Below, one piece after another: positions 34,311 to 54,133 of a stretch of DNA of 64,000 nt. A program made the translations under genes and the position numbers. Position 1 is the first letter of the stretch. Each line of letters opens with the position of its first letter. This DNA comes from Dyella sp. RRB7 (lineage in GTDB: Bacteria > Pseudomonadota > Gammaproteobacteria > Xanthomonadales > Rhodanobacteraceae), in the NCBI RefSeq assembly GCF_022761115.1, contig NZ_JAKWJS010000002.1, positions 62,001 through 126,000 on the forward strand. Reading direction: 5' to 3'. The notes under the pieces are model-generated. The model ran no database searches and had not been told where the DNA came from. It saw only the letters and a list, made by a program, of their open reading frames with translations.

Positions 34311-34324
34311 TTGATCCGCATCAA
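34311..34324 (-). promoter_or_regulatory. FNR/Anr/Dnr box, perfect
   Basis: TTGATCCGCATCAA is a perfect match to the TTGAT-N4-ATCAA consensus. Its centre is about 85 bases before the GNAT start. A TAGAAC hexamer at 34284-34289 (minus strand) lies about 31 bases downstream of the centre, near the place expected for a -10 element in a class II FNR promoter. Confidence 0.75.
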
Positions 34325-34357
34325 TGACCTGCCGCCGCGGCGGGCCGGTTGTCGCCA

Positions 34358-34786
34358 TTAGCGGCAGATCAGTACGGGGATATTGCTATGAAGCAGAACG
34401 CTCTGGGTCTCGCTGCCCAGCAGCAAGCGCGTCAAGCCTCTTCGTCCATGCGCACCCATGACGATCAAGTCGCAGGACTTTTCGCGGGCCACCTGGACGA
34501 TAACGTCCCATGGCTCGCCGCCATGCATGGCCAGGCAGTCGCAGGGCACGCCGGCCCTGTCGGTTTCCGCCTGTACGGCCGATAGGCAGTGCTCGGCGCG
34601 ATCCGTGCCGTCCTGGACGGAAAAGGGCCGGCTTTGGCCGGAAACATACGGCTCGGCCAGCTCGGGCAATATCACGTAAAGCGCGAACAGCCGCGCGCCG
34701 CAGAGCCTGGCCAGTTCGATCGCCTTTTCGGTAGCCCGCGTGGAGATGTCAGATCCGTCCACAGGAAGAAGAATGCGCTTGAACAT
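34358..34786 (-). CDS. Universal stress protein (single domain, ATP-binding type)
   Basis: A 142-residue UspA-domain protein. MFKRILLPVDGSDIS starts the fold with the conserved Asp, and the C-terminal GAHGRRGLTRLLLGSETQSVLL is the full ATP-binding motif (GxxGxxxxxxxxxG(S/T)). AAGAGG sits 5 bases before the ATG. The gene stands alone between the GNAT promoter and the PRPP synthetase-like gene; an FNR-like box lies 168 bases upstream. Confidence 0.93.
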   Translation of the reverse strand: MFKRILLPVDGSDISTRATEKAIELARLCGARLFALYVILPELAEPYVSGQSRPFSVQDGTDRAEHCLSAVQAETDRAGVPCDCLAMHGGEPWDVIVQVAREKSCDLIVMGAHGRRGLTRLLLGSETQSVLLHSNIPVLICR

Positions 34787-34947
34787 ATAGCCTCTTGCCA
34801 GCTCGGATGCCTTGCCGGCGCCGGTGGGCCTAATCGCCGGAGACGCCGGTTTGCTTTTTCGCCGCGGGCGTCCAGGTCGGCCTGTCAGGGCGAATGCAGT
34901 GGTGGAACCATTCGCGTGCCATCGTGCGCCCGGGACATCAGGCCGTA

Positions 34948-34961
34948 TTGATGGATGTCAA
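34948..34961 (-). promoter_or_regulatory. FNR-like box (one mismatch)
   Basis: TTGATGGATGTCAA differs from TTGAT-N4-ATCAA at one base. It lies in the 240-base gap upstream of the universal stress protein gene at 34786, centre about 168 bases from its start, which would imply a long leader of about 125 bases. Confidence 0.6.
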
Positions 34962-35026
34962 TGTCTGCTTGATCTTCAGCGTGAGCACTGGGCTCGTGCT
35001 GGGCGATTTCATCCGTCTGGGCGGCA

Positions 35027-35914
35027 TCAGAAGCCGGCGATGGCCTGGGCTACCAGGTGAGTGATATCGATGACTCCATTTTCCTGGACGATGCTGTTGG
35101 TCGTGACGATCCGCGATGCGCCGGCATTCAAGATGAGCTGCCTTGCCCCCGCCTCGAAGATGCCATGGACGGCGATGCAGATCGATGGTGGAAGATTCAA
35201 TAGCCTCAGTTGCGCTGCGTTTTCGGCCATGGTGTGACCGCTCGATATGATGTCGTCGACCAGTACCGGGGTGTGATTGGCGAACTGCGCGGCATGTGGA
35301 ATGGGCAGGTTGACCGATACATGCCTATCGTCCTTGCGGACCTTGCTGGCGACGATGAGCGGGGCGTCCACCAATGTTGCTATCTCGCCCGCCCACTGCG
35401 CACTTTCTTCGTCAGGGCCAATAATGAGCGGCCGCACGACGTTGGTTAGGATCCAGTCGGCGATGGTTGGGGCCACATGCAGCGTGTGGCCATGGGCCAG
35501 CCCCGCTTCGGCCAAGGTCGCATGGCGGTGAAGGTGCGGGTCGGCAGCAAGCACCCAGTCGAAATAGGGGGTAAGCAGTTTGCCCAGGATGCGCGAAGAC
35601 ACCGCCTCTCCCGGATGAAAGCGCGCGTCTTGCCTCATATAGGCGAGGTAAGGCGCTACCAGGCCGACGCGCGATGCGCCAAGTTCCCGTAGCGTGTCCG
35701 CCGCCTGAAGCAACGGAAAGATCTTGGGGTCCGGGCGATCGAGCGTGCACACCAGCAAGGCTTCACCCTTGTCTTCCGGCTCGGCCAACGTAATGAGCGC
35801 CTCGTCATCGGGAAAGCGGTGCAGGGAAAGTGCCCGCCTTGGCCAGCTTCCATGGATGGCGATCTGGTCGGCAAAGGCTTCATTGCCTGGCATCGCGTAA
35901 ACGGCATAGCTCAT
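35027..35914 (-). CDS. Ribose-phosphate pyrophosphokinase-like protein
   Basis: A 295-residue PRPP synthetase homologue. FPDDEALI corresponds to the ATP-site FPDGE block, PYLAYMRQDARFHPGEAVSSRILGKLL to the catalytic YxRQD...RE region, SKVRKDDRHVSV to the flexible catalytic loop, and VLVDDIISSGHTMAENAAQL to the PRPP-binding loop. It is shorter and more divergent than housekeeping Prs (about 315 residues), so the genome probably has another true Prs. It overlaps the phosphorylase stop by 4 bases (ATGA) and should act with it. Catalysis of PRPP synthesis or use of a related pentose bisphosphate is inferred. Confidence 0.85.
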   Translation of the reverse strand: MSYAVYAMPGNEAFADQIAIHGSWPRRALSLHRFPDDEALITLAEPEDKGEALLVCTLDRPDPKIFPLLQAADTLRELGASRVGLVAPYLAYMRQDARFHPGEAVSSRILGKLLTPYFDWVLAADPHLHRHATLAEAGLAHGHTLHVAPTIADWILTNVVRPLIIGPDEESAQWAGEIATLVDAPLIVASKVRKDDRHVSVNLPIPHAAQFANHTPVLVDDIISSGHTMAENAAQLRLLNLPPSICIAVHGIFEAGARQLILNAGASRIVTTNSIVQENGVIDITHLVAQAIAGF

Positions 35915-37458
35915 GGCGTACCCACCTCGACGATGTTCGGATGGCGCGAGACAAACTCCAGTGCATAGGCCAGTTCACCCTGGGTTTGCGCGTGCAGGGT
36001 GAAGAGCGGTTGGTCCTTGCTCACCCGGCTTCCCAATGAGGCGTCCAGCGTCAACCCGGCCAGTGGAGAGTGCGGCGCGCCGGCCAGCTTCGCGGCCTGG
36101 GCCAGGCGGCGATTGTCGATGCAGGTGACACGCCCTTCGAGGGACGTCGTCACGGGATGCTGAAAAGCCGCGACTCCCGGCGTGCGCAACCCGCCCTGTG
36201 CCTCGCAGATGGCCAGGAACTGGGTCAGTGCCTTGCCGCTGTCCAGCGTGTTGCGGGCCATCGCCATCGCGTCGATGGGCAAGGTGGCGAGCCCGGCCAG
36301 CTCGATCACCTGGGCAGCCAGCAGCAATGAGCGTTCCCGCAGATCGGCTGGGGCGGTCTTGTCCCGCGCGAGCACCGCCATGACATCGTGGGCTTCCAGG
36401 GCTGGGCCAATCCCGCGGCCGACGGGCGCGCGGCCATCCGAAAGAACCGTCCTTACCTGCAGGCCAAGACGCGATCCCACGCGCTGGATCAGCGCCGAGA
36501 GCGAGTCGGCCTCCTGCTGGCTGCGCACCTTGGCCGTAGGGCCCACGGGAATATCGATCACTACGTGGGTCGAGCCCGCCGCAATTTTCTTGGACAGTAC
36601 CGACGCGACGAGCTGCCCTTCGCCATCCACGCCCAGGGCGCGCTCGATGCGAATAAGCACATCGTCCGCCGGACTGAAGTTCACGCTACCGCCCCAGATG
36701 ATGCATCCGCCGGTGCGCTCCACCACGCGTCGCATCGCCTCAATGCCAATATCCACGGGGGCGAGCATCTCCATGGTGTCGGCCGTTCCCGCCGGCGAAG
36801 TGATGGCGCGGGAAGATGTCTTGGGCATGACCAGGCCAAGCGCGGTGGCGATGGACACCACGATGGGCGTGGTGCGATTGCCGGGCAGGCCGCCGACACA
36901 GTGTTTGTCCACGATCACGGCGCCGGGCCAGTGAAGCCGGCTCCCGCTGGCGACCATGGCCTGGGTCAGGTAGCCCACCTCCGGCTCGCTCAGGCGACCG
37001 TTGGCGCACGCCGCAATAAATGCAGCCAGTTCGATGCCGGAGTAGCGGCGCCCGGCGATGTCGCTCACGACGGCCTGGAACTGTGCGCTGTCCAGTTCAT
37101 GGCCATAAATTTTCCGGCGAACGAAGGCCAGCGATTCGACCGTGGGCGCGTGGGAAAAATAGGCCCGTTCGTTGGGTTTCGGCGCCAGTGCCCGCCAAGC
37201 CGATTCGGATAGCCCTGCCTCGTCGACGGCGAGCAGGTCGCCGTGCACGACCTCGAGCGTGGCGACCAAGCGCCGGTCGGCCACGTGCAGTTCGACGCGG
37301 CTGCGCGCAATAAAGCCCTCGCTGCTGCAGATGGGCGAATCGCTTTGAAGGAACACCACGTGCTCGTCACCGGTATCGATGCCCAGGCGCCGCAGGCGGC
37401 TGTTTTCTTGTTCGATATGGCCTCGGGAGTCGTCCGGCTGTTCAAGCGGCATCTGCAT
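35911..37458 (-). CDS. Thymidine/AMP phosphorylase family protein
   Basis: A 515-residue member of the thymidine phosphorylase superfamily that carries the extra N-terminal domain (about residues 20-95, LRRLGIDTGDEHVVF to LLAVDEAGLSE) of archaeal AMP phosphorylase. Core blocks are VDKHCVGGLPGNRTTPIVV, MPKTSSRAITSPAGTADTMEML, and GGSVNFSPADD. The family splits nucleosides or nucleoside monophosphates with phosphate, giving ribose 1-phosphate or ribose 1,5-bisphosphate. The start is uncertain: a GTG at 37512 overlapping the CBS gene stop is the alternative. It lies between a CBS protein and a PRPP synthetase-like protein in one leftward unit. Confidence 0.87.
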   Translation of the reverse strand: MQMPLEQPDDSRGHIEQENSRLRRLGIDTGDEHVVFLQSDSPICSSEGFIARSRVELHVADRRLVATLEVVHGDLLAVDEAGLSESAWRALAPKPNERAYFSHAPTVESLAFVRRKIYGHELDSAQFQAVVSDIAGRRYSGIELAAFIAACANGRLSEPEVGYLTQAMVASGSRLHWPGAVIVDKHCVGGLPGNRTTPIVVSIATALGLVMPKTSSRAITSPAGTADTMEMLAPVDIGIEAMRRVVERTGGCIIWGGSVNFSPADDVLIRIERALGVDGEGQLVASVLSKKIAAGSTHVVIDIPVGPTAKVRSQQEADSLSALIQRVGSRLGLQVRTVLSDGRAPVGRGIGPALEAHDVMAVLARDKTAPADLRERSLLLAAQVIELAGLATLPIDAMAMARNTLDSGKALTQFLAICEAQGGLRTPGVAAFQHPVTTSLEGRVTCIDNRRLAQAAKLAGAPHSPLAGLTLDASLGSRVSKDQPLFTLHAQTQGELAYALEFVSRHPNIVEVGTP

Positions 37459-37508
37459 TCTCTGATGAGCGGTGGGTAAGGGCGTTTGCCTGCGCGATGC
37501 CAGCGACG

Positions 37509-37997
37509 TCACTCGCCGTTGCCGTCGCGAGTTCCGTGGTGGTTTGACGCGAGGGCGGTGTGCTTTTCCAGCGGCGGCTCGATCAGCATCACCTCGGTCA
37601 GTTGCTGCAGCAGCGCGGTCACTGCCACCAGGGCGTCATCGGCGGTCACGATGCCGGCCAGCAAACCTTCCTCGTCGATCACCGGCAGTCGACGCACGCC
37701 GCTGCCGTGCATGATGGCAATGAGTTGCGCGAGCGTGGCGTCGTGGCGGCATACGACGACGGGTTGCGACATGACCGAGGCCATCGGCGTGGCTTGGACA
37801 TCGCAGCCCTCGCTCAGCCAGGACCTGCTGAGATCACGGTCGGTCACGATGCCCACCGGAGTTTGGCCGGACTCGTTGGCATGGACTACCACGAGGCAAC
37901 CGGTCAAATGCTGTTGCATGAGACGGGCTGCCTCATGAATGGACTGAAGCGGGGTGGCGACAATGACCCTGGAGGTGCCGATATCGATGGCTCGCAC
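37509..37997 (-). CDS. CBS-domain pair protein
   Basis: A 162-residue protein made only of two CBS domains (ATPLQSIHEAARLMQQHLTGCLVVV and the second repeat PVVVCRHDATLAQLIAIMHGSGVRRLPVIDEEG). Such pairs bind adenine nucleotides and act as energy-state sensors. The start is GTG with AGGAG 7 bases upstream. It heads a unit with the phosphorylase and the PRPP synthetase-like gene and has an FNR-like box 64 bases upstream. A regulatory role over the two downstream nucleotide enzymes is plausible but inferred. Confidence 0.88.
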   Translation of the reverse strand: MRAIDIGTSRVIVATPLQSIHEAARLMQQHLTGCLVVVHANESGQTPVGIVTDRDLSRSWLSEGCDVQATPMASVMSQPVVVCRHDATLAQLIAIMHGSGVRRLPVIDEEGLLAGIVTADDALVAVTALLQQLTEVMLIEPPLEKHTALASNHHGTRDGNGE

Positions 37998-38054: not shown

Positions 38055-38068
38055 TTGACGAACATCAA
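38055..38068 (-). promoter_or_regulatory. FNR-like box (one mismatch)
   Basis: TTGACGAACATCAA differs from TTGAT-N4-ATCAA at one base. It lies in the 126-base space between the alcohol dehydrogenase stop and the CBS gene start, centre about 64 bases from the GTG, so it probably controls the CBS-phosphorylase-PRPP synthetase unit. Confidence 0.65.
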
Positions 38069-38123: not shown

Positions 38124-39113
38124 TCAGGGCAGCAACACGGCGGCACCTTGCAGGCGGCCGAGGCGCAAATCCTGCAAGGCCCGATTCGCATCGCTCAGTG
38201 GATACGGCGTCACGTGCGGGATGATGCGCGCGCGTCCGGCGACCTCAAGGAAATCATGGCCGTCCGCGCGGGTAAGATTGGCGACGGAAAGCAACCGGCG
38301 TTCTTCCCATAGCAGGCGATAGGGGAAGCGCGGAATGTCGGACATATGGATGCCGCCGCAGACCACGCTGCCGCCCTTGCGGACAGCGCGCAAGGCGCTG
38401 GGAACGAGTTCGCCCGCCGCGGCAAAAATGATGGCCGCATCCAGTGGCTCCGGGGGGGATTCGTCCGAGCTGCCGGCCCATTCGGCGCCAAGCTCGCGCG
38501 CGAACGCCTGGGACGCCGCATCGCCAGGCCGGGTGAACGCATAGAACGGGCGCCCTTGATGGCGCAGCAGTTGGGCCAGGATATGCGCGGCGGCGCCAAA
38601 GCCATACAAGCCGACACTGGCGACATCGCCAGCAAGCCGAAGCGCGCGGGAACCGATCAACCCGGCACAGAGCAGCGGGGCGGCCGCGGCTGCGTCCGGA
38701 TAGTCACTGATGGGCAAGGGCAGGCAGAAAGCGGCCCGCGCGGTCATGTGCGTCGCATAGCCGCCGTCGCGATTGCATCCGGTGAAGACCGGCGTGTCGC
38801 ATAGATTCTCGCGTCCGCCAAGGCAATAGGCGCATCGGCCGCACGTACCTCCCAACCAGGGCACGCCGACGCGGTCACCGATGCCCGGGGCGTTGACGTC
38901 ACGCCCCACCGTGTCGATGACGCCGATGACCTCGTGGCCGGGAATCACCGGGTAACGAGCCTGTGGCAGCTCGCCGTCGATGAGATGAAGATCCGTGCGG
39001 CACACACCGCAGGCTTCGACCCGGATACGAACCTCGTCCGGTCCGGGCAACGGGTCCTCACGGTGCTCCGGAACCAGCGCCATGCCGACGCCCCTGGCAA
39101 CCATGGCTTGCAT
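38124..39113 (-). CDS. Zinc-dependent alcohol dehydrogenase
   Basis: A 329-residue medium-chain dehydrogenase of the AdhP/AdhA type. Catalytic zinc ligands are seen in GVCRTDLHLIDGE and PGHEVIGVID; the structural zinc site CGRCAYCLGGRENLC has four cysteines. The nucleotide fold is VGLYGFGAAAHILAQLL. The start ATG has GGAAGGAGA 8 bases upstream. Two stress protein genes lie just before it on the same strand (62 bases), which suggests co-transcription from the FNR-like box at 40367. A role in fermentative NADH reoxidation is inferred. Confidence 0.92.
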   Translation of the reverse strand: MQAMVARGVGMALVPEHREDPLPGPDEVRIRVEACGVCRTDLHLIDGELPQARYPVIPGHEVIGVIDTVGRDVNAPGIGDRVGVPWLGGTCGRCAYCLGGRENLCDTPVFTGCNRDGGYATHMTARAAFCLPLPISDYPDAAAAAPLLCAGLIGSRALRLAGDVASVGLYGFGAAAHILAQLLRHQGRPFYAFTRPGDAASQAFARELGAEWAGSSDESPPEPLDAAIIFAAAGELVPSALRAVRKGGSVVCGGIHMSDIPRFPYRLLWEERRLLSVANLTRADGHDFLEVAGRARIIPHVTPYPLSDANRALQDLRLGRLQGAAVLLP

Positions 39114-39175: not shown

Positions 39176-39613
39176 TCAGGGACAGACCATGACGGGGAGG
39201 TCCGAGCGCAGCAGTACCCGATGCGTCACGCTGCCAAGCAGCAGGCGGCCGACGCCGTGCCGGCCGTGCGACCCCATCACAATCAGGTCGCAGCCGCGCT
39301 CCTTGGCCACGTCGATGATCGCCTGATAGGGATGCTCGGCAAAGCGGTATTCGCACTCGCATGCCACGCCACTCGCCTGTGCCGTCTGTTCAATGTATTG
39401 GAGGTAGCGCTTTGCGCGTTCAGCGGCTTCGGTCTCATATGCCAGCTGTTTCGACTCGACCACTTCGATCAGGTAGGAGAGCGTGAAGAACGGCGGTACC
39501 GCATGAAAACCCAGCACGCGCGCACCCAGGGTCTTGGCCAGCTCGATACCCACGGCGGCGGATTTTTCCGAGCTTGAAGATCCATCGGTAGGAAGCAGGA
39601 TATGTTGAAACAT
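39176..39613 (-). CDS. Universal stress protein (ATP-binding type)
   Basis: A 145-residue UspA-domain protein starting MFQHILLPTDGSSSSEKSA and ending with the complete nucleotide motif GSHGRHGVGRLLLGSVTHRVLL. A short upstream in-frame ATG at 39643 is rejected because family members start at MFQHIL. It follows another stress protein gene by 20 bases and precedes the alcohol dehydrogenase gene. Confidence 0.93.
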   Translation of the reverse strand: MFQHILLPTDGSSSSEKSAAVGIELAKTLGARVLGFHAVPPFFTLSYLIEVVESKQLAYETEAAERAKRYLQYIEQTAQASGVACECEYRFAEHPYQAIIDVAKERGCDLIVMGSHGRHGVGRLLLGSVTHRVLLRSDLPVMVCP

Positions 39614-39633: not shown

Positions 39634-40071
39634 TTAATGGCATACCAGCACGGGAACGCCAGCGTCGCCTAGTAGCTTTACCACCTCATGACTCAACTGG
39701 ACGCGATGGCCGTGAGCGTATTCACTGGCGCCCACCACGATCAGATCGCAGCCTGACAGGTTCGCCGCGGCGACAATGGCGGTATACGGGCGATGATCGA
39801 ACACATAGCCATCCTTGAAATCCACCCTGGCCTCGCGCGCGATGGTCGCGAGACTGGCCAGGTGTTCCTTTGCATGCTCAACGGCCTTGCCGGCGTAGCC
39901 GCCGTTCGCGTGCACGATGAAATCACTTGCCAGCGACACCGCCGCCAGGGGCGAAAGGATTTCCAGGCCCACGGCCGAGGCACCGCTGTGGGTGGCCATG
40001 TCGATGCCCACGGCGGCGGCACGCAGGGATTGATCACTGCCATCGATCGGCAAGAGGATGCGCTTGAACAT
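39634..40071 (-). CDS. Universal stress protein, ATP motif degenerate
   Basis: A 145-residue UspA-domain protein starting MFKRILLPIDGSDQSLRAA. Its C-terminal loop reads GASEYAHGHRVQLSHEVVKLLGDAGVPVLV, so the usual GxxGxxxxxxxxxGS motif is lost although the fold is kept; it is probably a non-ATP-binding Usp. It sits 21 bases after a small membrane protein gene and 20 bases before the next Usp gene. Confidence 0.9.
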   Translation of the reverse strand: MFKRILLPIDGSDQSLRAAAVGIDMATHSGASAVGLEILSPLAAVSLASDFIVHANGGYAGKAVEHAKEHLASLATIAREARVDFKDGYVFDHRPYTAIVAAANLSGCDLIVVGASEYAHGHRVQLSHEVVKLLGDAGVPVLVCH

Positions 40072-40092: not shown

Positions 40093-40305
40093 TTAGGGGC
40101 GGCGCCAATCGGCGATGATGCTGATCAGCAGCAGGACGGCACTGGTGCCGCAGATCCACTCGATGATGGGAATAGCCTGTTTTCCCCAGTCATGCACCAA
40201 GGCCAGGGAGCTGACCACCGCCACGACGGCGAGCACCGACGTGAGCGTGGAAAAGGCGAAGCGCGTCGGCGTCTTCCGCTTGTCCGGTGACAGTCCAGAT
40301 GCCAT
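40093..40305 (-). CDS. Small two-helix membrane protein
   Basis: A 70-residue protein of unknown function. After a short basic N-terminus (MASGLSPDKRKTPTRFA) it has two hydrophobic stretches, STLTSVLAVVAVVSSLALV and WICGTSAVLLLISIIA, with a short polar link, ending in DWRRP. GGAG lies 8 bases before the ATG. It is the first gene of the run with two stress proteins and the alcohol dehydrogenase, and an FNR-like box lies 68 bases upstream. I do not recognise a family. Confidence 0.65.
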   Translation of the reverse strand: MASGLSPDKRKTPTRFAFSTLTSVLAVVAVVSSLALVHDWGKQAIPIIEWICGTSAVLLLISIIADWRRP

Positions 40306-40366: not shown

Positions 40367-40380
40367 TTGACGCATGTCAA
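40367..40380 (-). promoter_or_regulatory. FNR-like box (two mismatches, perfect palindrome)
   Basis: TTGACGCATGTCAA is a perfect inverted repeat (TTGAC/GTCAA) and differs from TTGAT-N4-ATCAA at the two inner bases. Its centre is about 68 bases before the start of the small membrane protein gene that opens the Usp-Usp-alcohol dehydrogenase run. Confidence 0.55.
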
Positions 40381-40486: not shown

Positions 40487-41509
40487 CTACATGACTAGCG
40501 GGTCAAGTGCTTCGCCGTGCGTGGCATTACCGCTTAGTGGGTAGAGGATAGGCTGGTCGATCCACATTTGCATGGCTGCACGCAGCTCGATCTGCGCCTC
40601 CAAGGATGCCGCGGCGGCTTCCATGAGCATGGCCTGGACCGGCGGCGGCAACACCATTCGACGCATCATCTCCATGGTATAGCCGGACGAGTGGATGGAG
40701 CGCGGCGGCGTCTCGCTGGAGACGATCTGCTGCCGCCTTTCGGTGGGCAGCGGATCGACCGCATTGCTTACGTTGTTGGCGAGCAGGGCGAGTCGTGGCT
40801 GCGAGGTGATCGCGGTGAGCCTGGCCTGTCGCAGGCCGAAGCGTTCCGCATCCGCCGCCAACTCGGTGGAAAGTTCCCTCAGCTTGTAGCCCAGCGTGAG
40901 GCACTCGGAAACATCGCGCCGGGCCCCTCGCTCACGTGCGAGGCGCAGGTTGCCGTACAGGCAGCCGCTGGTGAGATGGCGCGCGACGTCACGGGCGACT
41001 TTGCGACCCGTGTCGCTGTCGTAGCGCAACCCCAATAGCGCCAGCGCATCGGCCAGTCCTATCAGTCCGATGCGAAGATGCATGCCTGAATGACCGGAGG
41101 CACCCGCGGACAGCGCCGCAGCATTGTCCAGGGCGTTGACGGCAAGCTCGGCGACGGATTCAAAGGCTTCGAGATTCAGGCTCGCCTGGCTGGTGCCGGG
41201 GGCGCGCACAAAGCTGACCACATTCAGTACGGCGACAAGTTCATCGTCCGGCCAGCCGGCATCGCCCGTGCCGGCCGCGACCAGTATGCGTTCGTCAAGC
41301 AACACCTGCCATTCGCCGAGCGCATCGCAAAGGCGCCGCCCAAAAGCCCCGGTGCGCCCCGGCCTTTCTGCGCAGGCCAGCGTGCGCGCCACGCGTGACC
41401 AGGTGTCATGGATGGAGATGTCGCGCAGTTCATCGCGCAGGCGCCAGCGGAACCAGGCATCCCAGGCCTCCACGGCGGCCAGGTCGATGAATGCTGATGT
41501 TTCACTCAT
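40487..41509 (-). CDS. Degenerate ribonucleotide reductase-like protein
   Basis: A 340-residue protein related to the large-chain barrel region of class II/I ribonucleotide reductases. GTSQASLNLEAFESVAELAVNALDNAA aligns by eye with the CNLxSLNL...LDN block, and HLRIGLIGLADALALLGLRYDS with the RriGLGvmGLAdaL..lGi.YdS block. The Cys of CNLxS is replaced and no NLCxE thiyl-radical motif or N-terminal ATP cone is present, so it should not be an active reductase. Start is the ATG of MSETSAFIDL; the frame stays open farther upstream without similarity. It is divergent from the FNR-type regulator gene. Role unknown; a nucleotide-binding or regulatory job is possible. Confidence 0.65.
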   Translation of the reverse strand: MSETSAFIDLAAVEAWDAWFRWRLRDELRDISIHDTWSRVARTLACAERPGRTGAFGRRLCDALGEWQVLLDERILVAAGTGDAGWPDDELVAVLNVVSFVRAPGTSQASLNLEAFESVAELAVNALDNAAALSAGASGHSGMHLRIGLIGLADALALLGLRYDSDTGRKVARDVARHLTSGCLYGNLRLARERGARRDVSECLTLGYKLRELSTELAADAERFGLRQARLTAITSQPRLALLANNVSNAVDPLPTERRQQIVSSETPPRSIHSSGYTMEMMRRMVLPPPVQAMLMEAAAASLEAQIELRAAMQMWIDQPILYPLSGNATHGEALDPLVM

Positions 41510-46174: not shown

Positions 46175-47256
46175 AGACCCGCTATGTGTTTGGGCTGGCC
46201 GCCCTGGGAGCGCTGCTAGCGGTAGCCAGCGCAGTGGTTTCCAGCCTTCCGAAGAAGGCCATGCCGCCGGAGTTCACGCCGGCCACCAATCCCTACGAGC
46301 ATGGCATCTATGCCAACGGCATCGTGGAGAGCTACCTCGCCAGCGGCGAGAACATCAACATCTATCCCGAGGTGGCCGGCAAGGTGGCGCGCGTGCTGGT
46401 GCACGAAGGCGCCTCGGTCAAAGCCGGAACGCCCCTGCTGCAGATCGACGACTCCGTGCAGCGCGCCACCGTGGCGCAGCAGCAACAGCAGGCCGCGGCG
46501 GCCCTTGCCACGCTGCAGGAACTCCAGTCGATGCCGCGCAAGGAGACGCTCGATGTGGCCAAGGCACAGGTGCTGCTTGCCCAGGCCAATCGAAAAACGG
46601 CGGCCGATGAGTTTGACAAGCAGAAGCGCTCATTCGATACCGACCCGCGCTCGGTAAGCCGCGATGCCCTGGACAGTGCGCATAACGCGTTGTTGGCGGC
46701 CGACGCCAACCTGCAGGTGGCGACCCGGCAATATGACCTGACCCGGGCCGGCGCCTGGGTATACGACATCAACAACCAGCAGATGCAATACAACGCGCTG
46801 GTGGAATCGTACAAGGCATCGAGCGCGCTGCTCGACAAATATGCCGTCGCCGCCACCACCGATGGCGTGGTGCTGGCCGTCAACACGGCGGTGGGCAGCT
46901 TCGTTTCGACGCAGGGCGTCTATGACAGCTATACCCAGGCGTTCAATCCCGTGGTGGTCATGGGAGCCTCGCAGGATTACTTCGCCGTTCGCTGCTATAT
47001 CGACGAGATCCTGGTCAGCCGGCTGCCCGCACCCGAGCACATGCGCGCGCAGATGTCCGTCCGCGGCACCGACCTGAAGATTCCCCTGGAGTTCGTGCGC
47101 ACGCAGCCGTACGTCACGCCCAAGATCGAGCTGGCCGACCAGCGCCAGGAGCGCGTGGACCTTCGCGTATTGCCGGTCATTTTCCGTTTCAAGAATCCCT
47201 CCAACTCGCGGATCTATCCCGGGGAACTGGTGGATGTGTATGTGGGCGAGAAGTAG
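46171..47256 (+). CDS. HlyD-type periplasmic adaptor (DevB-like)
   Basis: A 361-residue membrane fusion protein. An N-terminal helix (YVFGLAALGALLAVASAVVSSL) anchors it in the inner membrane. The lipoyl-like half-motifs YPEVAGKVARVLVHEGASVKAGTPLLQID and YAVAATTDGVVLAVNTAVGSFV flank an alpha-helical hairpin rich in Ala and Gln (about residues 95-215). It bridges the permease and outer membrane channel encoded next to it. The ATG overlaps the ATPase stop, and its 3' end overlaps the channel gene by 23 bases. Confidence 0.9.
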   Translation: MKTRYVFGLAALGALLAVASAVVSSLPKKAMPPEFTPATNPYEHGIYANGIVESYLASGENINIYPEVAGKVARVLVHEGASVKAGTPLLQIDDSVQRATVAQQQQQAAAALATLQELQSMPRKETLDVAKAQVLLAQANRKTAADEFDKQKRSFDTDPRSVSRDALDSAHNALLAADANLQVATRQYDLTRAGAWVYDINNQQMQYNALVESYKASSALLDKYAVAATTDGVVLAVNTAVGSFVSTQGVYDSYTQAFNPVVVMGASQDYFAVRCYIDEILVSRLPAPEHMRAQMSVRGTDLKIPLEFVRTQPYVTPKIELADQRQERVDLRVLPVIFRFKNPSNSRIYPGELVDVYVGEK

Positions 47257-48721
47257 CCGCTGGCTGTGGCTGGCAACCGCGCTGTTGAGCGCCTGCGCCG
47301 CGGGGCCTGACTTCGTGCGGCCGGCGGCGCCCGGCGATACGACCTATGTGCCGGCATCCAGCCAGCCAGGCAAGCTCGATGCGCTGGGGCAGGCCCAGCA
47401 GCTCGACGTACACGCGACGCTGTCAGCCGACTGGTGGCGTTTGTTCGGATCGCCCTCGATCGATACGATGGTCGACACGGCGCTGGCGAACAACCCTGGC
47501 ATTCAAGGTGCCGAGGCGACCTTGCGCGAAAGCCAGGACAACCTGCGCGCCGGCTACGGGGTTTTCTTTCCCCAGGTTGGCCTGGGCGTCAGCGCGACGC
47601 GCCAGCGTGAAACGTTGTCGCGGCTGGGGCTCAGCGGGGCAGGCAGCATCTTCAACTTGTTTACGCTGGGGCCGACGATCAGCTATGCGCTGGATCTGTT
47701 CGGGGCCCAGCGGCGCACTGTGGAAGGGCTGCGGGCCAGCATGGATTATCAGCGCTATACGCTATTGGCCGCCGACATCACGCTGACGGGCAACGTGGTC
47801 AACACCGCCGTTGCGCGGGAAGCTTATGCCGAGCAGATGGAGATTACGCAGGACCTGATCGCCCTGCAGCGCGATCAACTGGGCATCACGCGAACGCGCG
47901 CCGATGCGGGCACGGTGCCGTACTCGGCGGTGGAGTCGGTGCGCAGCGCGCTGGCAACGACCGAGGCCGCGCTGCCGGCGCTGGAACAGCATCGCGACCA
48001 GGCGGACCATATGCTTTCCGCGTTGCTGGGTCATACGACAGCGCAGGAGAGCGCGCCTGGATTTCGCCTGGACGACCTGCATCTTCCCGGCGACTTGCCG
48101 CTCAGCCTGCCCTCGGCGCTGGTGCGGCAGCGCCCCGACATTCTTGCGGCCGAAGCGCAGCTGCATGTCGCCAACGCCAATGTCGGCGTGGCCACCGCAG
48201 CGCTGTTTCCCAGCTTCAGCCTCAGTGGCAGCTATGGCACGAATGGCAATACGGTCAGTTCCCTGTCCCAGGCGCAAAGCAAATTCTGGAGCGCGGGCGT
48301 GTCGGGCGATTGGCCGGCATTCCAGGGCGGCACCGCCTGGTTCAACCGCAAGGCCGCCATGGAGGGCTACAGCAAGTCGCTCAGCGATTACCGCCAGACG
48401 GTGCTTGGCGCATTCGAGCAAGTTGCCGATACCTTGAAGGCCCTGGAGCACGATGCCCTTGAACTCAGCGCCCAGAACGAGGCCATGCAGGCCGCCCAGG
48501 AGGCGTTGAAGCTCACGCAGGCCAACTATGCCGCCGGCCTCGCCGGATATCTCGACGTACTCAGCGCCGACCAGCAATACCAGCAGTCGCGCATGGCTTA
48601 CGTGCAGGCGATGGCGCAGCGCTACCAGGACACGGTGGGGTTGTACGTCGCCCTGGGCGGTGGCTGGTGGAATGCGCCGCCGGCGAGCGACATGGCGAAA
48701 GCGGCGGGGAGTTCCCCATGA
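47234..48721 (+). CDS. NodT-family outer membrane efflux lipoprotein
   Basis: A 495-residue TolC-like channel with a lipobox LSAC (Cys21) after a short signal peptide. Family blocks are LSADWWRLFGSPSIDTMVDTALANNPGIQGAE, RAGYGVFFPQVG and SALVRQRPDILAAEAQLHVANANVGVA. It is placed between adaptor and permease genes, overlapping both, so all four products should be made together. An internal ATG at 47240 is an alternative start. The related protein at 122 shares family but not context. Confidence 0.93.
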   Translation: MCMWARSSRWLWLATALLSACAAGPDFVRPAAPGDTTYVPASSQPGKLDALGQAQQLDVHATLSADWWRLFGSPSIDTMVDTALANNPGIQGAEATLRESQDNLRAGYGVFFPQVGLGVSATRQRETLSRLGLSGAGSIFNLFTLGPTISYALDLFGAQRRTVEGLRASMDYQRYTLLAADITLTGNVVNTAVAREAYAEQMEITQDLIALQRDQLGITRTRADAGTVPYSAVESVRSALATTEAALPALEQHRDQADHMLSALLGHTTAQESAPGFRLDDLHLPGDLPLSLPSALVRQRPDILAAEAQLHVANANVGVATAALFPSFSLSGSYGTNGNTVSSLSQAQSKFWSAGVSGDWPAFQGGTAWFNRKAAMEGYSKSLSDYRQTVLGAFEQVADTLKALEHDALELSAQNEAMQAAQEALKLTQANYAAGLAGYLDVLSADQQYQQSRMAYVQAMAQRYQDTVGLYVALGGGWWNAPPASDMAKAAGSSP

Positions 48722-49860
48722 AGCTGCCCGGCATACTTCGTCTTGCCTACAAGCTGCTGGTCAACGACAAGGGGAAGTTCGCCGCCTTGTTGATCGGCGT
48801 GACGTTCGCCGCCTTCCTGATGGTGCAGATGACCTCGATGTTCGCCGGCATCCTGTCGCGATCGTCTTCCACGGTGGCCAATATCGGAGCGAGCATCTGG
48901 GTCATGGATCCCGCCGTCCAGACGGTTGCCAATACCATCCCCATGCCCGATTACCTGCTCGACGCCATCCGCAGCATCGATGGCGTCCGCTATGCGGCGC
49001 CGCTCTATTCGGGCGGGGCGCTGGTCAAGCTCAACAATGGCGTGTACCAGTCGGTCAGCGTGCTCGGCCTGGACGACACCAGCCTGGTCGGCCGGCCGGC
49101 GCTGGAGAAGGGCGATATCGACAATATCTACGCGGACAATGCGTTTATCGTCGTCGACGATGCCGAATACCCGAAGCTCGACAATCCGCAGATCGGCACG
49201 GAGTTCGAGCTCAACGATTTCCGCGGCGTGATCGTGGGCGTGGCCAAGGTCAACTCGTTCGGCTTGTTCGGCGTCCCCACGCTCTACACCACCTACAGCC
49301 GCGCGATCCAGTACATACCCAACAGCCGCTTCACCCTGTCGTACATACTGGTCGAGCCCAAGAAGGCCAGCGATGTCGCCTTGATCAAGGCGGCCGTGGC
49401 AAAGCTCGGTTACCTGGCGCTGACCAACGAGGAGTTCGACGATCGCATCGCCGATTTCTACAAGTACCAGACCGGCATCGGCACCAACATCATGCTGATG
49501 ACCATCATCAGCTTCATCGTGGGTCTATCGATCTCGGCGCAGACCTTCTACACGTTCATCCTCGAGAATCTCGACAAGTTCGGTGCGCTCAAGGCGATCG
49601 GCGCCAAGGGGCGCGAGCTGGTGTACATGATCCTGTTCCAGGTGACCTTCACCAGCTTGGCGGGCTATGGACTGGGCGTGGGCTTGTGCACGCTGCTGAT
49701 CGCCGTGGCGCGCCTGCGCCTGCCGGATTACGCCGCGATCATCACGTTCGCCAACCTGGGGATGGCCTTTGCCATGGTGCTGTTGATTGCCGCCATCTCC
49801 AGCTACATCGGCATCCGCAGGGTCATCAAGATCGAGCCGTTCGATATCTTCCGCGGCTGA
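48718..49860 (+). CDS. ABC exporter permease (FtsX/DevC-like)
   Basis: A 380-residue inner membrane permease with one N-terminal helix (FAALLIGVTFAAFLMVQMTSMF), a periplasmic domain of about 230 residues, and three C-terminal helices (IMLMTIISFIVGLSISAQTFYTFI, LVYMILFQVTFTSLAGYGLGVGLCTLL, and MAFAMVLLIAAISSYIGI), the FtsX/MacB layout. Length and N-terminus resemble cyanobacterial DevC. The ATG overlaps the channel stop by 4 bases. Substrate is unknown: DevBCA exports glycolipids and MacB-like systems export siderophores, lipids or peptides. It converges with a stress protein gene. Confidence 0.9.
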   Translation: MKLPGILRLAYKLLVNDKGKFAALLIGVTFAAFLMVQMTSMFAGILSRSSSTVANIGASIWVMDPAVQTVANTIPMPDYLLDAIRSIDGVRYAAPLYSGGALVKLNNGVYQSVSVLGLDDTSLVGRPALEKGDIDNIYADNAFIVVDDAEYPKLDNPQIGTEFELNDFRGVIVGVAKVNSFGLFGVPTLYTTYSRAIQYIPNSRFTLSYILVEPKKASDVALIKAAVAKLGYLALTNEEFDDRIADFYKYQTGIGTNIMLMTIISFIVGLSISAQTFYTFILENLDKFGALKAIGAKGRELVYMILFQVTFTSLAGYGLGVGLCTLLIAVARLRLPDYAAIITFANLGMAFAMVLLIAAISSYIGIRRVIKIEPFDIFRG

Positions 49861-49864: not shown

Positions 49865-50689
49865 TCAGTGCCGCATGAGTACCGGGATCGCCGCCTTTTC
49901 CAGCGCCGTGCGCGTGGCGCCGCCGAGTATCCATTCGCTGAAACGGGTGTGCCCGTAGGCGCCCATCACCAACAGGTTGGCCTCGACGTCGGCGGCGGCG
50001 TTCAGCAATGCGCCGCCGATCAGCTCGTCCGGCTCCGACAGCATGAGGAACTCGTGCCGGATGGCGTGCCTGGCCAGATAGTTCGATAGATCAAACGGCG
50101 GCTTCCAGGCGGACATGCTGGCCGATGGCCTCTGTTGTCCATGAAGTACGACGACCTGGCGCGCCCTGGCCAGCAGGGGCAGGGCGGCGTGGATGGCCCC
50201 GATGGCTTCGGATGATCCATTCCACGCCACGGCGACACGATCCAGCGTCGACGTGGCACCCTCGGGCGGTACCACGATGCATGGCATGTGGGTGCCCAGT
50301 ACGAGACTGCCCACGGCCGACGGCAGGCCCCAGGAGCCCTGCGTGCCGCGCCCGAGCACCAGCAGGTCGTGCCAGTTTCCCGCCAGCTCCAGCGCCCTTG
50401 GCACGTTCTCTTCCGCCATCTGCCAAGCGGCCCTGGTGACGCCACGCTCATGCGCAAAGGCCAGGAACGAGGCTTCCGCGCGACTGGCATGCTCTTCAAG
50501 TTCGCGTGATGCCTCCATCAGTTCCGTGATCAGCTCTGGCGCCTCATAAGGCGTGACCAACGAGCTTGGCGATGGGCAGACGAAGATCCCGGTCAACGCC
50601 GCCTCCACGGTGGCGGCGAGCCGCGCGGCGTAGTCAACCGCGGGCGACCAGTGCTTGAAGCTCTCACAGTTAACCAGGATGTCGCACAT
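49865..50689 (-). CDS. Tandem-domain universal stress protein
   Basis: A 274-residue protein with two UspA domains; the first begins MCDILVNCESFKHWSPAVDYAARL and the second VAVAWNGSSEAIGAIHAALPLL, ending GAYGHTRFSEWILGGATRTALEKAAIPVLMRH. It resembles the tandem protein encoded at 32748 in length and ending. CGGAGA lies 7 bases before the ATG. It is divergent from the CBS-BON gene, with two FNR-like sites in the shared region. Confidence 0.9.
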   Translation of the reverse strand: MCDILVNCESFKHWSPAVDYAARLAATVEAALTGIFVCPSPSSLVTPYEAPELITELMEASRELEEHASRAEASFLAFAHERGVTRAAWQMAEENVPRALELAGNWHDLLVLGRGTQGSWGLPSAVGSLVLGTHMPCIVVPPEGATSTLDRVAVAWNGSSEAIGAIHAALPLLARARQVVVLHGQQRPSASMSAWKPPFDLSNYLARHAIRHEFLMLSEPDELIGGALLNAAADVEANLLVMGAYGHTRFSEWILGGATRTALEKAAIPVLMRH

Positions 50690-50776
50690 CGTCCGTCTCC
50701 GCAGGGGCTGGGAAATGCAGCGCTCGCCGGCCGCGCGCGGCCGCAAAACACGCTAACCCCTCATAGGGGCGCCATG

Positions 50777-50790
50777 CTGATATGCGTCAA
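50777..50790 (-). promoter_or_regulatory. Weak FNR-like site
   Basis: CTGATATGCGTCAA differs from TTGAT-N4-ATCAA at two bases. It lies about 95 bases upstream of the tandem stress protein start (minus strand) and 60 bases from the better site at 50844, so each divergent gene could have its own site. Confidence 0.35.
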
Positions 50791-50843
50791 CAAGGAGTAA
50801 GCCATGCGGTGGGCTTCCAACAGGCAGCCGATGGTGGATGGCA

Positions 50844-50857
50844 TTGACGAAAATCAA
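50844..50857 (+). promoter_or_regulatory. FNR-like box (one mismatch)
   Basis: TTGACGAAAATCAA differs from TTGAT-N4-ATCAA at one base. Its centre is 58 bases before the CBS-BON ATG, which leaves room for a promoter at -41.5 and the GGAGG ribosome site at 50896-50900. Confidence 0.65.
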
Positions 50858-50908
50858 TCCGCAGAGGCCGCCCGGGCAGATACTCAAATCTTTCCGGAGG
50901 GACGGACC

Positions 50909-51628
50909 ATGAAAGTAAGCGATGCAATGTCAGGTGGCGTAAAAACCGTCTTCGTCGACGATTCGGTCACCTTTGCCATGCGGCTGATGCTGGATAACCA
51001 CCTGAGCGGGCTCCCCGTCGTCGACCGGCAAGGCCACCTGGTCGGCATGCTCACCGAGGGCGACCTCATGCGGCGGGCCGAGCTTGGCACGGAGCGCAAG
51101 CACCCGCATTGGCTCGAGTTCATTCTCGGCCCGGGGCGTCTGGCCCAGGAATATGTCGACACCCATGGGCGACGGGTCGAGGAAGTCATGACCGCCGACG
51201 TGGTGTCGATCGACAAGTCGATGCCGCTGAAGGAGGCCGTGACCCTGATGGAGGGCAGGCATATCAAGCGCCTGCCGGTATTGGATCATGGCCGGCTCGT
51301 GGGCATCATCAGCCGGGCCGATCTGCTGCGAACGTTCCTGGCTACGTCCCTCGAACCAGATATCGCCCAAGGGGTATCGGATGACGTCATCCGGCAGCGC
51401 ATCGACAGGGAGATCGACCGGCAGCCCTGGAATCCGCGAGCCACGGTGGGCATCAAGGTGGATCGGGGAGTGGTTGACCTGAGTGGCATCGTCACCAGCG
51501 AGGCCATGCGCGATGCGCTACGCGTTCTCGTCGAAAATACGCCAGGGGTCATCCGTATTCGCGATGACATCACGACGGTTGAACCGATCAGCGGCCTGGT
51601 GGTGCGATCTCCCACCGACGCGGCCTGA
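50909..51628 (+). CDS. CBS-pair and BON-domain protein
   Basis: A 239-residue protein with two CBS domains (about residues 1-60, MKVSDAMSGGVKTVFVDDSVTFAM, and 90-150, VEEVMTADVVSIDKSMPLKEAVTLM) and a C-terminal BON domain (about 165-230, IRQRIDREIDRQPWNPRATVGIKVDRGVVDLSGIV). CBS pairs sense adenine nucleotides; BON domains are thought to bind phospholipid. The ATG has GGAGG 8 bases upstream; an upstream in-frame ATG at 50804 covers the FNR-like box and is rejected. It converges with phosphoketolase. Confidence 0.92.
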   Translation: MKVSDAMSGGVKTVFVDDSVTFAMRLMLDNHLSGLPVVDRQGHLVGMLTEGDLMRRAELGTERKHPHWLEFILGPGRLAQEYVDTHGRRVEEVMTADVVSIDKSMPLKEAVTLMEGRHIKRLPVLDHGRLVGIISRADLLRTFLATSLEPDIAQGVSDDVIRQRIDREIDRQPWNPRATVGIKVDRGVVDLSGIVTSEAMRDALRVLVENTPGVIRIRDDITTVEPISGLVVRSPTDAA

Positions 51629-51648
51629 GCAGGAAATCCGCACCGTTA

Positions 51649-54012
51649 TCACAACGTCCACCGCCAATCACGAACTTCCGGCATGTCTTCGCCGTGTTCG
51701 CTGATATAGAGCTTGTGCCGTTCCATGATCGACCAATAGCGCTCCGCGGCATCCTTGGCATGGGCCTGCAGCCGCGGGGTACGCTGGATGACATCGAGTG
51801 CCAGTTGATAGCGATCGAGGTTATTCAGCACCACCATGTCGAACGGCGTGGTCGTGGTGCCTTCGTCTTTGTAGCCCCGCACATGGAACTGGTGGTGATT
51901 CCGGCGGCGGTAGGTCAGCTTGTGTATGAGCGTGGGATAGCCATGGAAGGCGAAGATGACGGGCCTGTCCGTGGTGAACAATTCATCGAAATCCTGGTCC
52001 TGCAGCCCATGCGGGTGCTCGGAGGGTGGCTGCAACACCATCAGGTCGACCACGTTGACGACGCGAATGCGGATGTCCGGGATGTAGCTTCTCAGCAACG
52101 TCACCGCGGCCAGCGTCTCCAGGGTCGGTACGTCCCCGGCGCAGGCCATGACCACGTCGGGATTCCCCTCGTCGTTGCTGGCCCAGTCCCATATGCCGGC
52201 GCCCGCGGCGCAGTGGCGCACGGCCGCATCCATGTCGAGCCACTGCCATTCGGGCTGTTTGCCCGCGACGATCAGGTTGATGTAGTTGCGGCTGCGCAGG
52301 CAATGATCGGCGACGGAGAGAAGACAGTTGGCGTCGGGCGGGAGATAGATGCGGACGACATCGGCCTTCTTGTTGGCCACATGGTCGATGAAGCCGGGGT
52401 CCTGGTGCGAGAACCCGTTGTGATCCTGGCGCCACACGTGGGAGGTGAGCAGGTAGTTCAACGATGCGATGGGCTTGCGCCAGGGGATCGCTCGACTCAC
52501 CTTGAGCCATTTGGCGTGCTGGTTGAACATCGAATCGATGATATGGATGAAGGCCTCATAACATGAGAACAGGCCATGGCGTCCGGTGAGCAGATAGCCT
52601 TCGAGCCAGCCCTCGCACAGGTGCTCGCTCAACACCTCCATGACCCGGCCATTCGGGCTGAGATCGATATCGACGGCCTCCGTTCTCGCCATCCACTCCT
52701 TGCCGGATACCTCGTAGACCGCCTCCAGCCGGTTCGATGCCGTTTCGTCGGGACCAAACAGCCGGAAGTTCGCCGTATCCAGATTGAATCGCATCACCTC
52801 GCGCAGAAACTGGCCAAGCACCCGCGTCGACTCCGCGCTGACGCTGCCCGGCGACGGCACCGCAACCGCGTGCTGGAATACGTGCGGCATCACCAGCGGC
52901 CGCAGCAGCTCGCCTCCATTGGCATGCGGGTTTGAGCCCATGCGGCGATGGCCGGTGGGCGCGAGTGCGGCGATGTCTTCGTGCAGCTGTCCGGTGGCGT
53001 CGAACAATTCCTCCGGTCGGTAGCTTTTCAGCCAATCCTCAAGCTGCTTCAGGTGCTCCGGATTTTCAAAGTTGGCGATCGGCACCTGGTGCGCGCGCCA
53101 GGTGCCTTCGACAGGCTTGCCGTCCACGATTTTTGGACCGGTCCATCCCTTGGGCGTGCGCAGGATGATCATGGGCCAGCTGGGCCGCTCGATGTCGTCC
53201 GCATCGGCATGCGCGCGTGCCTGGCGCTTGATGCGGTCGATCTTGTCCATCACCACGTCGAGCGTTCCGGCAAGCAACTGATGCACCACGGCCGGATCGC
53301 TGCCCTCGACGAGGTGCGGGTCGTATCCATAGCCGCGCATCAGCTCGAACAGTTCGCGGTCACCGATGCGTGCCAGTACCGTCGGGTTGGCGATCTTGAA
53401 GCCATTGAGGTGAAGAATGGGCAGCACCACCCCATCCCGCGCCGGATTGAGGAATTTGTTGGAATGCCAGCTGGTGGCCAGCGCGCCGGTCTCGGCTTCG
53501 CCATCGCCGATAACGCAGGCGACGATCAGCTCGGGGTTGTCGAACGCGGCGCCATACGCATGCGCCAGTGAATAGCCGAGTTCGCCGCCCTCATGGATGG
53601 ACCCCGGCGTGTCCGGCGACACATGGCTGGGTACGCCATACGGCCAGGAAAACTGCCGGAACAGCCGCGAAAGCCCGTTACGGCTGCGTTCGATGGCCGG
53701 GTAACGCTCGGTATACGAGCCTTCCAGATAGGTTTGCGCCACCAGGCCGGGGCCGCCATGGCCGGGGCCGGTGACAAAGATCATGTCCAGGTCGCGCTGC
53801 TTGATAAGACGATTGAAATGAACGTAAAGCAGGTTCAGGCCAGGAGTCGTCCCCCAGTGGCCAAGCAGGCGTGGCTTTATGTGTTCGAGCTTGAGTGGCA
53901 CCTCAAGCAATGGATTGTCGCGAAGGTAGATTTGCCCGACGGAAAGGTAATTCGCCGCACGCCAATAGGCATGCATGCGCTCCAGCAGCTGATTGGACAA
54001 CGGGCCCTTCAT
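51649..54012 (-). CDS. xfp: Xylulose 5-phosphate/fructose 6-phosphate phosphoketolase
   Basis: A 787-residue thiamine-diphosphate enzyme cleaving xylulose 5-phosphate or fructose 6-phosphate with phosphate to acetyl phosphate and a triose or tetrose phosphate. Family blocks are [46 protein letters not shown], the cofactor site [25 protein letters not shown], and the C-terminal [32 protein letters not shown] lies 6 bases before the ATG. A perfect FNR-type box lies 114 bases upstream. No acetate kinase or phosphotransacetylase is seen nearby, so the fate of acetyl phosphate is handled elsewhere. Confidence 0.96.
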
Positions 54013-54119
54013 CGTAGCCTCCGGATAAGGCACCACTGTTGGACGTGATGGCAAGCGTCTCGCCATGGCTTGAGCATCACTCAATACAGGATAGGTTGTC
54101 CTCGATCCGTGGATCCGAA

Positions 54120-54133
54120 TTGATGGAGATCAA
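54120..54133 (-). promoter_or_regulatory. FNR/Anr/Dnr box, perfect
   Basis: TTGATGGAGATCAA matches TTGAT-N4-ATCAA exactly. It lies in the 385-base gap (54013-54397) upstream of phosphoketolase, centre about 114 bases from the ATG. The rest of that gap shows no further gene or signal that I can support. Confidence 0.75.

Follow-up and report, generated by a model that had tools for sequence, protein, structure and literature searches.

The FixLJ–FixK2 cascade of Bradyrhizobium joins a PAS-domain kinase and a response regulator to an FNR-family activator without an Fe–S cluster that uses TTGAY-N4-RTCAA boxes, and its targets or accompanying microoxic proteins include universal stress (Usp), CBS, phosphoketolase, alcohol dehydrogenase (ADH), Hsp20, and HlyD/ABC proteins (PMC6515984, PMC9104804, and PMC2908626). 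We describe here an island (positions 34311–54133) within a 64,000-nt stretch of the Dyella sp. RRB7 genome (the window; contig NZ_JAKWJS010000002.1, positions 62,001–126,000) that carries eight such boxes, a Crp/Fnr-family regulator without Fe–S ligands (REG), and a kinase and response regulator pair beside it. The regulon is real, well beyond chance, and has a probable activator as well as a probable promoter for that activator; we further consider it probable that the island forms a largely self-contained regulon under a FixLJ–FixK-like cascade in Rhodanobacteraceae, as a variant of a known design. Unlike the rhizobial cascade, the response regulator here is OmpR-type (Trans_reg_C) instead of FixJ-type (LuxR-class), the kinase is a PAS–GAF hybrid with a receiver, REG is nearer in sequence to FNR than to FixK2 and stands apart from S. 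meliloti FixK in a tree (long branches), and the boxes are clustered in one island around the regulator.

The lxa locus of Burkholderia cenocepacia spans BCAM0275–0323. It is a low-oxygen locus of 50 genes, six of them for Usp proteins (PMC9733578); an earlier note on this DNA, made from the sequence alone, had likened the island to it, and the likeness is one of gene content only. In the Burkholderia cepacia complex a FixLJ pair with a PAS kinase activates fixK at low oxygen (PMC5234846), but its FixJ is LuxR-type and the response regulator here OmpR-type. With FNR and Anr regulons the island shares the box, class II spacing, and the E and R of the recognition helix; yet REG lacks the four Fe–S ligands and boxes persist in genomes without a recognisable FNR, so that the label of Anr/Dnr regulon does not apply in the strict sense; the earlier note had seen a resemblance to such regulons. 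A narrow literature search, with most subscription journals outside its scope, found no paper on this cascade.

The analysed genome (4,079,393 bases in 19 contigs) was scanned for TTGAY-N4-RTCAA, either exactly or with up to one mismatch as stated, using the same pattern reversed as control. A re-scan of the window recovered all eight palindromes that had been read by eye, seven of them exact and the one at 50777 with one mismatch. Exact boxes number 14 genome-wide (reversed control, 7), and seven of these fall in the island, which at 19.8 kb makes up 0.49% of the genome (binomial P = 2.1e-13); density outside the island is therefore about that of chance. An equal density elsewhere, which had been named in advance as the finding that would count against a local regulon, is thus not seen. 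Nor does the window hold any exact box beyond 34311–54133. With up to one mismatch allowed, 13 matches turn up in the window, where shuffles predict 2.98; genome-wide, one mismatch gives 230 sites and the reversed control 140, so degenerate matches are mostly noise. By the gene starts called here, all eight island boxes are intergenic, 33 to ∼160 bp ahead of a start codon, with the caveat for the box at 50844 that an in-frame ATG at 50804 would place it within the CBS–BON frame, whose start we take to be 50909. Each of the seven exact boxes outside the island lies beneath an open frame of more than 133 codons.

Class II spacing is the geometry of FNR-type activators. At all eight island boxes a −10-like hexamer stands exactly 21 nt past the palindrome on the gene strand, which gives the following predicted promoters:

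34311–34324, minus strand: box, −10-like TAGAAC at 21 nt; promoter of the GNAT gene (33655–34233) and, probably, of the Usp and beta-CASP genes that follow
34948–34961, minus strand: box, −10-like CACGAT at 21 nt; promoter of the Usp gene 34358–34786
38055–38068, minus strand: box, −10 TAGGCT at 21 nt; promoter of the CBS, thymidine/AMP phosphorylase, and PRPP synthase-like genes
40367–40380, minus strand: box, −10 TAACCT at 21 nt; promoter of the small membrane open reading frame (ORF), two Usp genes, and the alcohol dehydrogenase gene
45432–45445, plus strand: box, −10 TAGCCT at 21 nt; promoter of the ABC/MacB-type exporter genes
50777–50790, minus strand: box with one mismatch, −10 TAGCGT at 21 nt; promoter of the Usp gene 49865–50689
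50844–50857, plus strand: box, −10-like GATACT at 21 nt; promoter of the CBS–BON protein gene
54120–54133, minus strand: box, −10-like CAACCT at 21 nt; promoter of the phosphoketolase gene

In the exporter promoter the ATG follows the box by 33 nt, so the leader is very short. The A at the second and the T at the sixth position of a −10 element occur at 20–23 nt from seven of the eight island boxes (34311 lacks them) and, on either strand, from none of the seven exact boxes outside, one of which (C1:349555, TACGAC) passes once a mismatch is allowed. Genome-wide, a box followed at 21 nt by TANNNT, with up to one mismatch, is found at 13 places (reversed control, 1), and eight of these are the island sites, all facing their genes (P = 4e-16). 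Among the other five, the exact box just named (L259) lies beneath a 664-codon open frame and another (L268) within frames of more than 500 codons on both strands, while three are possible further targets: L260 (C1:800143), ∼58 nt before the start, as read here, of an FAD-binding oxidoreductase; L266 (C12:286793), ∼170 nt before an AhpC/TSA peroxiredoxin; and L267 (C12:379962), which is beneath no listed frame and precedes an ORF without a Pfam match. With these three candidates in view, confinement of the regulon to the island is near-complete but not certain.

The same geometry recurs in relatives. For 272 sites in 40 genomes (265 from relatives and the seven exact boxes of this island), read in both directions for a total of 544, strict TANNNT occurs 52 times at offset 21 and 18 times at offset 22, while each of the remaining offsets between 0 and 59 has 0–7. 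In 226 of the 272 sites the −10 A and T stand at 20–23 nt, with seven control windows giving 33–72; by this measure 226 sites have the spacing of class II FNR-type promoters (−10 at ∼21–22 nt after the box), their starts being predicted from sequence.

The regulator that probably reads these boxes lies near the middle of the island with its presumed controllers:

41603–41627, plus strand: direct repeats GTTAC-N5-GTTAC-N5-GTTGC, first base 106 bp ahead of the REG start codon; proposed site of the response regulator
41709–42431, plus strand: REG, Crp/Fnr-family regulator without Fe–S ligands, helix ETVCR; proposed reader of the boxes
42449–44497, minus strand: hybrid histidine kinase, PAS–GAF–HisKA–HATPase–receiver, its PAS domain closest to FixL among solved structures
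44494–45246, minus strand: OmpR-type response regulator (domain matches to receiver and Trans_reg_C)

The nearest solved relatives of REG are FNR (9qly, E 2.8e-34) and then FixK2 (E 3.9e-18). We aligned 58 REG rows, some of which are one gene under two names, with 21 FNR rows. The N-terminal Cys motif that provides Fe–S ligands in FNR is found in none of the REG rows, and the column of FNR C122 is occupied by W in 54, I in 3, and V in 1; all 21 FNR rows have both the motif and C122. E202 and R206 of the TTGA-reading recognition helix are present in all 58 REG rows, and a Cys205 in that helix in five, from the Dyella genus itself. The FixK group has been defined, for alphaproteobacteria, as proteins of the FNR–FixK group without one or more of the Fe–S Cys (PMC2908626), and REG, FNR-like in sequence and without all four, falls under that wording. 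Its score against the NCBIfam model TransRegFixKCaul is 63.1 bits, far below the cut-off of 300 for FixK proper; the NCBIfam Fnr model (cut-off 228) discriminates poorly, giving 143.7 bits for REG and a likewise failing 144.2 for the genome's own FNR. In a tree, a branch with 99/96 support sets the REG rows apart, and the genome's own FNR joins beside the REG branch (92/88), a placement flagged as a possible long-branch artefact. When three Variovorax proteins are added, these and REG separate from FNR with 96/92 support, and S. meliloti FixK groups with FNR, next to the genome's own FNR, each of the two on a long branch; the placement of long rows (own FNR, FixK, and Clp) is unsure. The separation of REG and Variovorax from FNR and FixK suggests that REG lost its Fe–S cluster independently of FixK.

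Boxes follow REG across the family. Orthologues (E <= 1e-50) are found in 64 of 197 family genomes, including four of the 18 sampled from the same genus, this one among them (REG-less genomes are itemised except for the last 11, and those without a match in the corresponding FNR search except for the last 10). In 39 of the 64 carriers, mostly those with best-scoring REG on long contigs, we took up to 40 kb around REG (two regions are shortened by contig ends, and the window stands for this island); these flanks contain 265 exact boxes, as against 5.8 predicted by box density elsewhere in those genomes and two in the reversed control. In each of the 12 genera that include genomes with and without REG, the mean box count is greater in those that carry it, and a genus-stratified permutation over the 197 genomes reached the observed value in none of 5000 trials (reversed control, 877 of 5000).

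Control of REG itself appears to lie with the neighbouring pair; the earlier note reported neither this probable place of the pair in a cascade nor the direct repeats. The REG gene is tail to tail with that of the PAS–GAF hybrid kinase, and the OmpR-type response regulator is on the strand of the kinase; 38 of 40 islands have all three genes, with the pair opposite in direction to REG in all 38 and the kinase adjacent to REG in 37. Direct repeats of ten bp are typical of OmpR-family sites. GTTAC-N5-GTTAC is found upstream of REG in all 40 islands, 32 of which have a third repeat, GTTNC. The triple repeat GTTAC-N5-GTTAC-N5-GTTNC has a single copy in this genome, at 41603–41627. Of the 197 genomes, 58 have it: among the 64 REG carriers it is present in 50, and among the 133 genomes that lack REG in 8 (Fisher P 2e-25; the reversed control gives 2 hits). 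Counted from its first base, it stands 104–201 bp ahead of the aligned start of 52 REG genes, two genomes contributing two each, and of four homologues of 38–40% identity in genus g4. A second copy 3.6–3.9 kb further on in G014, G036, G065, and G091 perhaps precedes the response-regulator gene, and in both G065 and G091 a further copy lies at a great distance from REG. Mechanical assignment of boxes to genes, which recovers six of the eight promoters of this island, attributes a box-driven promoter to the response regulator in none of 39 genomes and to the kinase in none of 38. The lack of box promoters at the pair, together with the repeats before REG, fits the order kinase, response regulator, REG, targets, and we judge it highly likely from sequence that the pair drives REG. 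Autoregulation of REG through a box was considered and rejected, a promoter being assigned to REG in only two of 40 genomes by the same mechanical procedure of limited power.

As to the signal, the best solved matches of the kinase PAS domain are the haem domains of FixL (E 6e-20), with DosP lower and next among named sensors, and a His aligns with FixL H200 (FixL numbering) in all 38 kinases. The PAS domain may bind haem, and low oxygen is rather likely to be the signal, judging from the gene kit and the FixL-like domain of the linked kinase. In the mechanism that we infer, the PAS–GAF hybrid kinase and OmpR-type response regulator (42449–45246) would switch on the REG gene through binding at the GTTAC repeats at 41603, and REG, an FNR-family protein that lacks the oxygen-sensing Fe–S cluster and presumably still reads TTGAY-N4-RTCAA, would then activate eight class II promoters (boxes centred near −41.5) of stress, CBS, phosphoketolase, nucleotide-salvage, alcohol dehydrogenase, and exporter genes. 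The layout would be that of the rhizobial FixLJ–FixK cascade, with an OmpR-type protein replacing the FixJ-type middle step and probably with low oxygen at its head.

The predicted targets in relatives resemble those of the known systems. Mechanical assignment gave 246 first genes, with ORFs chosen by codon score, and 221 of their proteins were scanned for families after exclusion of 25 ORFs (six of the window, 12 second readings from a neighbouring site, three near-copies in G156, and four by hand, of which two were in L074 and one each in L084 and L119). Usp was found in 62, CBS in 17, BON in at least nine, Host_attach/baeRF in eight, acetate kinase and ADH_N in six each, cation ATPase in at least five, PTA and Hsp20 in four each, and COX1 in three, several of these counts being lower bounds from the first 25 families of each scan. 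Among the microoxic proteins of Bradyrhizobium are Usp, CBS, phosphoketolase, AdhP, and proteins of host attachment (PMC6515984), and a predicted FixK regulon includes phosphoketolase, CBS, Hsp20, HlyD, ABC permease, and Zn-ADH (PMC2908626). Once respiration stops, ribose and pentose phosphates derived from nucleosides could pass through phosphoketolase to acetyl phosphate and yield ATP via acetate kinase. Acetate kinase is a target in some relatives and is not among the proteins identified in this island. The set of CBS, archaeal-type thymidine/AMP phosphorylase, and PRPP synthase-like genes (35027–37997, minus strand) is under one box here, a possible nucleotide-to-phosphoketolase energy route.

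Another protein might read the boxes. This genome has five matches to the Crp helix–turn–helix (HTH) family: REG; a 4Fe–4S FNR (L016, G000:C12:407693-408394) with the motif C-x2-C-x5-C and helix ETVSR; P0001, just right of the island; a Clp-type protein with helix SREMVGR (L018); and L019, which resembles another kind of HTH protein. P0001 (57209–57937, minus strand; near relatives in G010 and G008) was rejected as reader, its helix, REGVTEA, not being of the TTGA-reading E-x2-[SCT]-R type. FNR itself is the more serious candidate: as in Anr-type regulons it would read the boxes, and REG would be a modifier or an unrelated neighbour. Its Cys motif and helix lead us to expect that it reads the same box, and in two Cupriavidus loci (L283 and L284) a similar gene kit, with AMP phosphorylase, CBS, and Usp genes and boxes having TANNNT at 21 nt, stands beside an FNR-type regulator that contains Cys (in L284 the Cys motif is legible in the sequence, and the scripted test misses it owing to a long frame extension); there the kit is similar and the sensor different. 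Against this, four REG genomes of 99–100% completeness (G047, G123, G069, and G125) have above the Crp-HTH cut-off solely REG and a Clp-type protein, and G154 has in addition one marginal match that is not Crp-like in look (L149, 29.1 bits); when FNR is used as query, each of the five yields one weak match (E 1e-25 to 1e-33), which we take to be REG itself. Boxes are still enriched beside REG in the four of these within the flank set, with 7 in G047, 11 in G123, 3 in G069, and 4 in G154 (G125 is outside it). Conversely, the 14 same-genus genomes without REG all carry FNR, at 80–90% identity, yet their sites are mostly scattered, the densest group being three in 4 kb (G162, C11:156268-160355) among the eight genomes listed in full (the list has 8 of 14 sites for G124 and none for G090, G144, G153, G179, or G187). 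On the genomes without recognisable FNR, and on box counts that follow REG within genera, we reject FNR as the sole reader, and we regard FNR as the reader in place of REG as highly improbable. In one relative, G010, the FNR-like protein with the Cys motif has an ATVTR helix instead. L016 is a true FNR, while the exact boxes outside the island look like chance. We are accordingly close to confident, on sequence evidence, that REG reads the boxes: flank enrichment, the FNR-less genomes, and within-genus counts lend strong support to the earlier proposal of the 41709 regulator as reader, as do enrichment, promoter geometry, and REG linkage to that of one regulon.

Even with REG as the reader, the signal could be nitric oxide, redox state, or energy stress, entering through the PAS–GAF kinase or through REG itself, for example at Cys205. 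Usp, CBS, and BON proteins are general stress proteins, one outside candidate (L266) precedes an AhpC gene, and there is precedent in FixK2, where oxidation of a Cys close to the DNA-binding domain exerts control over the protein (PMC9104804). Phosphoketolase here and acetate kinase, PTA, ADH, and cytochrome oxidase targets in relatives point instead to limited respiration, as does the microoxic character of a similar gene set in Bradyrhizobium (PMC6515984); we hold a signal other than oxygen to be unlikely. It is improbable, too, that the kinase and response regulator are side partners and that another factor binds the GTTAC repeats and drives REG. Binding of the response regulator at the repeats is putative, and three Variovorax records have the pair without the repeats; but the synteny of the pair with REG is near-invariant, the repeats are of the kind associated with OmpR-family regulators, and no box-driven promoter was mechanically assigned to either gene of the pair.

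Several observations weigh against the cascade of kinase pair, REG, and boxes that we favour. The helix of this genome's FNR should read the same box, and co-regulation alongside REG is possible. The REG flanks of G099 and G057 have no boxes, and enrichment is weak in G107 (one box, P=0.16) and G008 (two boxes, P=0.04). In its wiring, the copy examined in G128 lacks the pair and G107 lacks the kinase; 14 of the 64 genomes with REG lack the full triple repeat, as the Variovorax islands lack GTTAC repeats altogether, and of the eight REG-less genomes that have it, four carry it beside the homologue of 38–40% identity and G114, G129, G140, and G147 are unexplained. The statement that no box promoter precedes the response regulator or kinase comes from a mechanical assignment that misses some promoters, and has limited power. 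For the sensor, the haem case is weak: where FixL has R220, 29 of 38 kinases have Tyr and none has Arg; moreover, the PAS type is widespread, with matches of 41–49% in Streptomyces sensors and a Legionella diguanylate cyclase, and similar PAS domains also occur in proteins not known as oxygen sensors.

The island is not limited to Dyella. In a survey in which 38 of 80 loci were read, named carriers include Dyella, Rhodanobacter, Luteibacter, Dokdonella, Tahibacter, Lysobacter, and Luteimonas; the stretches examined from Tahibacter caeni and Luteimonas have no boxes. Three Variovorax megaplasmid records carry the same Cys-less regulator together with the kinase and response regulator (adjacent in two records, ∼13 kb apart in the third). 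All three have Usp and ADH genes; L281 also has phosphoketolase, and L282 has AMP phosphorylase. As raw counts, boxes number 6, 5, and 3 per 40 kb. Whether all this amounts to a FixLJ–FixK-like low-oxygen cascade of non-rhizobial origin, in which an FNR paralogue without its cluster has come under an OmpR-type pair and a plug-in island running from sensor to target has spread across Rhodanobacteraceae, other Lysobacterales, and Variovorax megaplasmids, with the regulon nearly island-confined in this genome, is to our minds evenly balanced. Two further observations come from these collections: an identical box, TTGATCCGTGTCAA, is repeated on several contigs of G096 and G118, probably as part of a repeated element, and NZ_CP119142.1, a 2.17-Mb Neisseria gonorrhoeae record in the plasmid collection, has a size that suggests a mislabelled chromosome.

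The remaining genes of the island are as follows, by family match unless stated otherwise:

31276–32751, minus strand: beta-CASP metallo-hydrolase, probable last gene of the GNAT operon
32748–33803, minus strand: Usp-domain protein, open frame with true start probably near 33622
33655–34233, minus strand: GNAT acetyltransferase, weakly Pat-like, far under the Pat model cut-off
34358–34786, minus strand: universal stress protein
35027–35914, minus strand: ribose-phosphate diphosphokinase-like protein
35911–37512, minus strand: archaeal-type thymidine/AMP phosphorylase family protein, open frame
37509–37997, minus strand: CBS-domain protein
38124–39113, minus strand: zinc alcohol dehydrogenase (adh_fam_2)
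39176–39613, minus strand: universal stress protein
39634–40071, minus strand: universal stress protein
40093–40305, minus strand: small membrane-like ORF of 70 aa, no Pfam match
45479–46174, plus strand: ABC transporter ATPase
46171–47256, plus strand: HlyD-like membrane-fusion protein
47234–48721, plus strand: outer-membrane efflux protein
48718–49860, plus strand: FtsX/MacB-type permease
49865–50689, minus strand: Usp protein of 275 aa, probably tandem
50909–51628, plus strand: CBS–BON protein
51649–54012, minus strand: phosphoketolase

Divergent from REG, at 40487–41509 on the minus strand, is a gene for a 340-aa protein that matches only the C-terminal barrel of ribonucleotide reductase and has homologues in 16 of 39 islands. 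The beta-CASP metallo-hydrolase scores with Cas14-type and aCPSF1 models, below their cut-offs, and in Variovorax, too, an MBL-fold gene follows a Usp gene. Beside the island are the hopanoid genes HpnH and HpnB (28839–31270, plus strand). GC content across the window is fairly even, and no insertion site for horizontal transfer was demonstrable when the flanking genes were searched in 20 same-genus genomes: the right flank gene is found at varied places, and the gene used for the left flank encodes a Usp protein that is probably itself an island member.

With the promoters, the regulator, a proposed promoter for that regulator, and a sensor all named, common environmental bacteria gain a complete candidate hypoxia circuit. 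The island also offers a clear case in which an FNR-family activator has seemingly handed sensing to a two-component system, with the FNR box and gene kit kept. Because only four of the 18 sampled genomes of the genus have the island, close relatives with and without the circuit can be compared.

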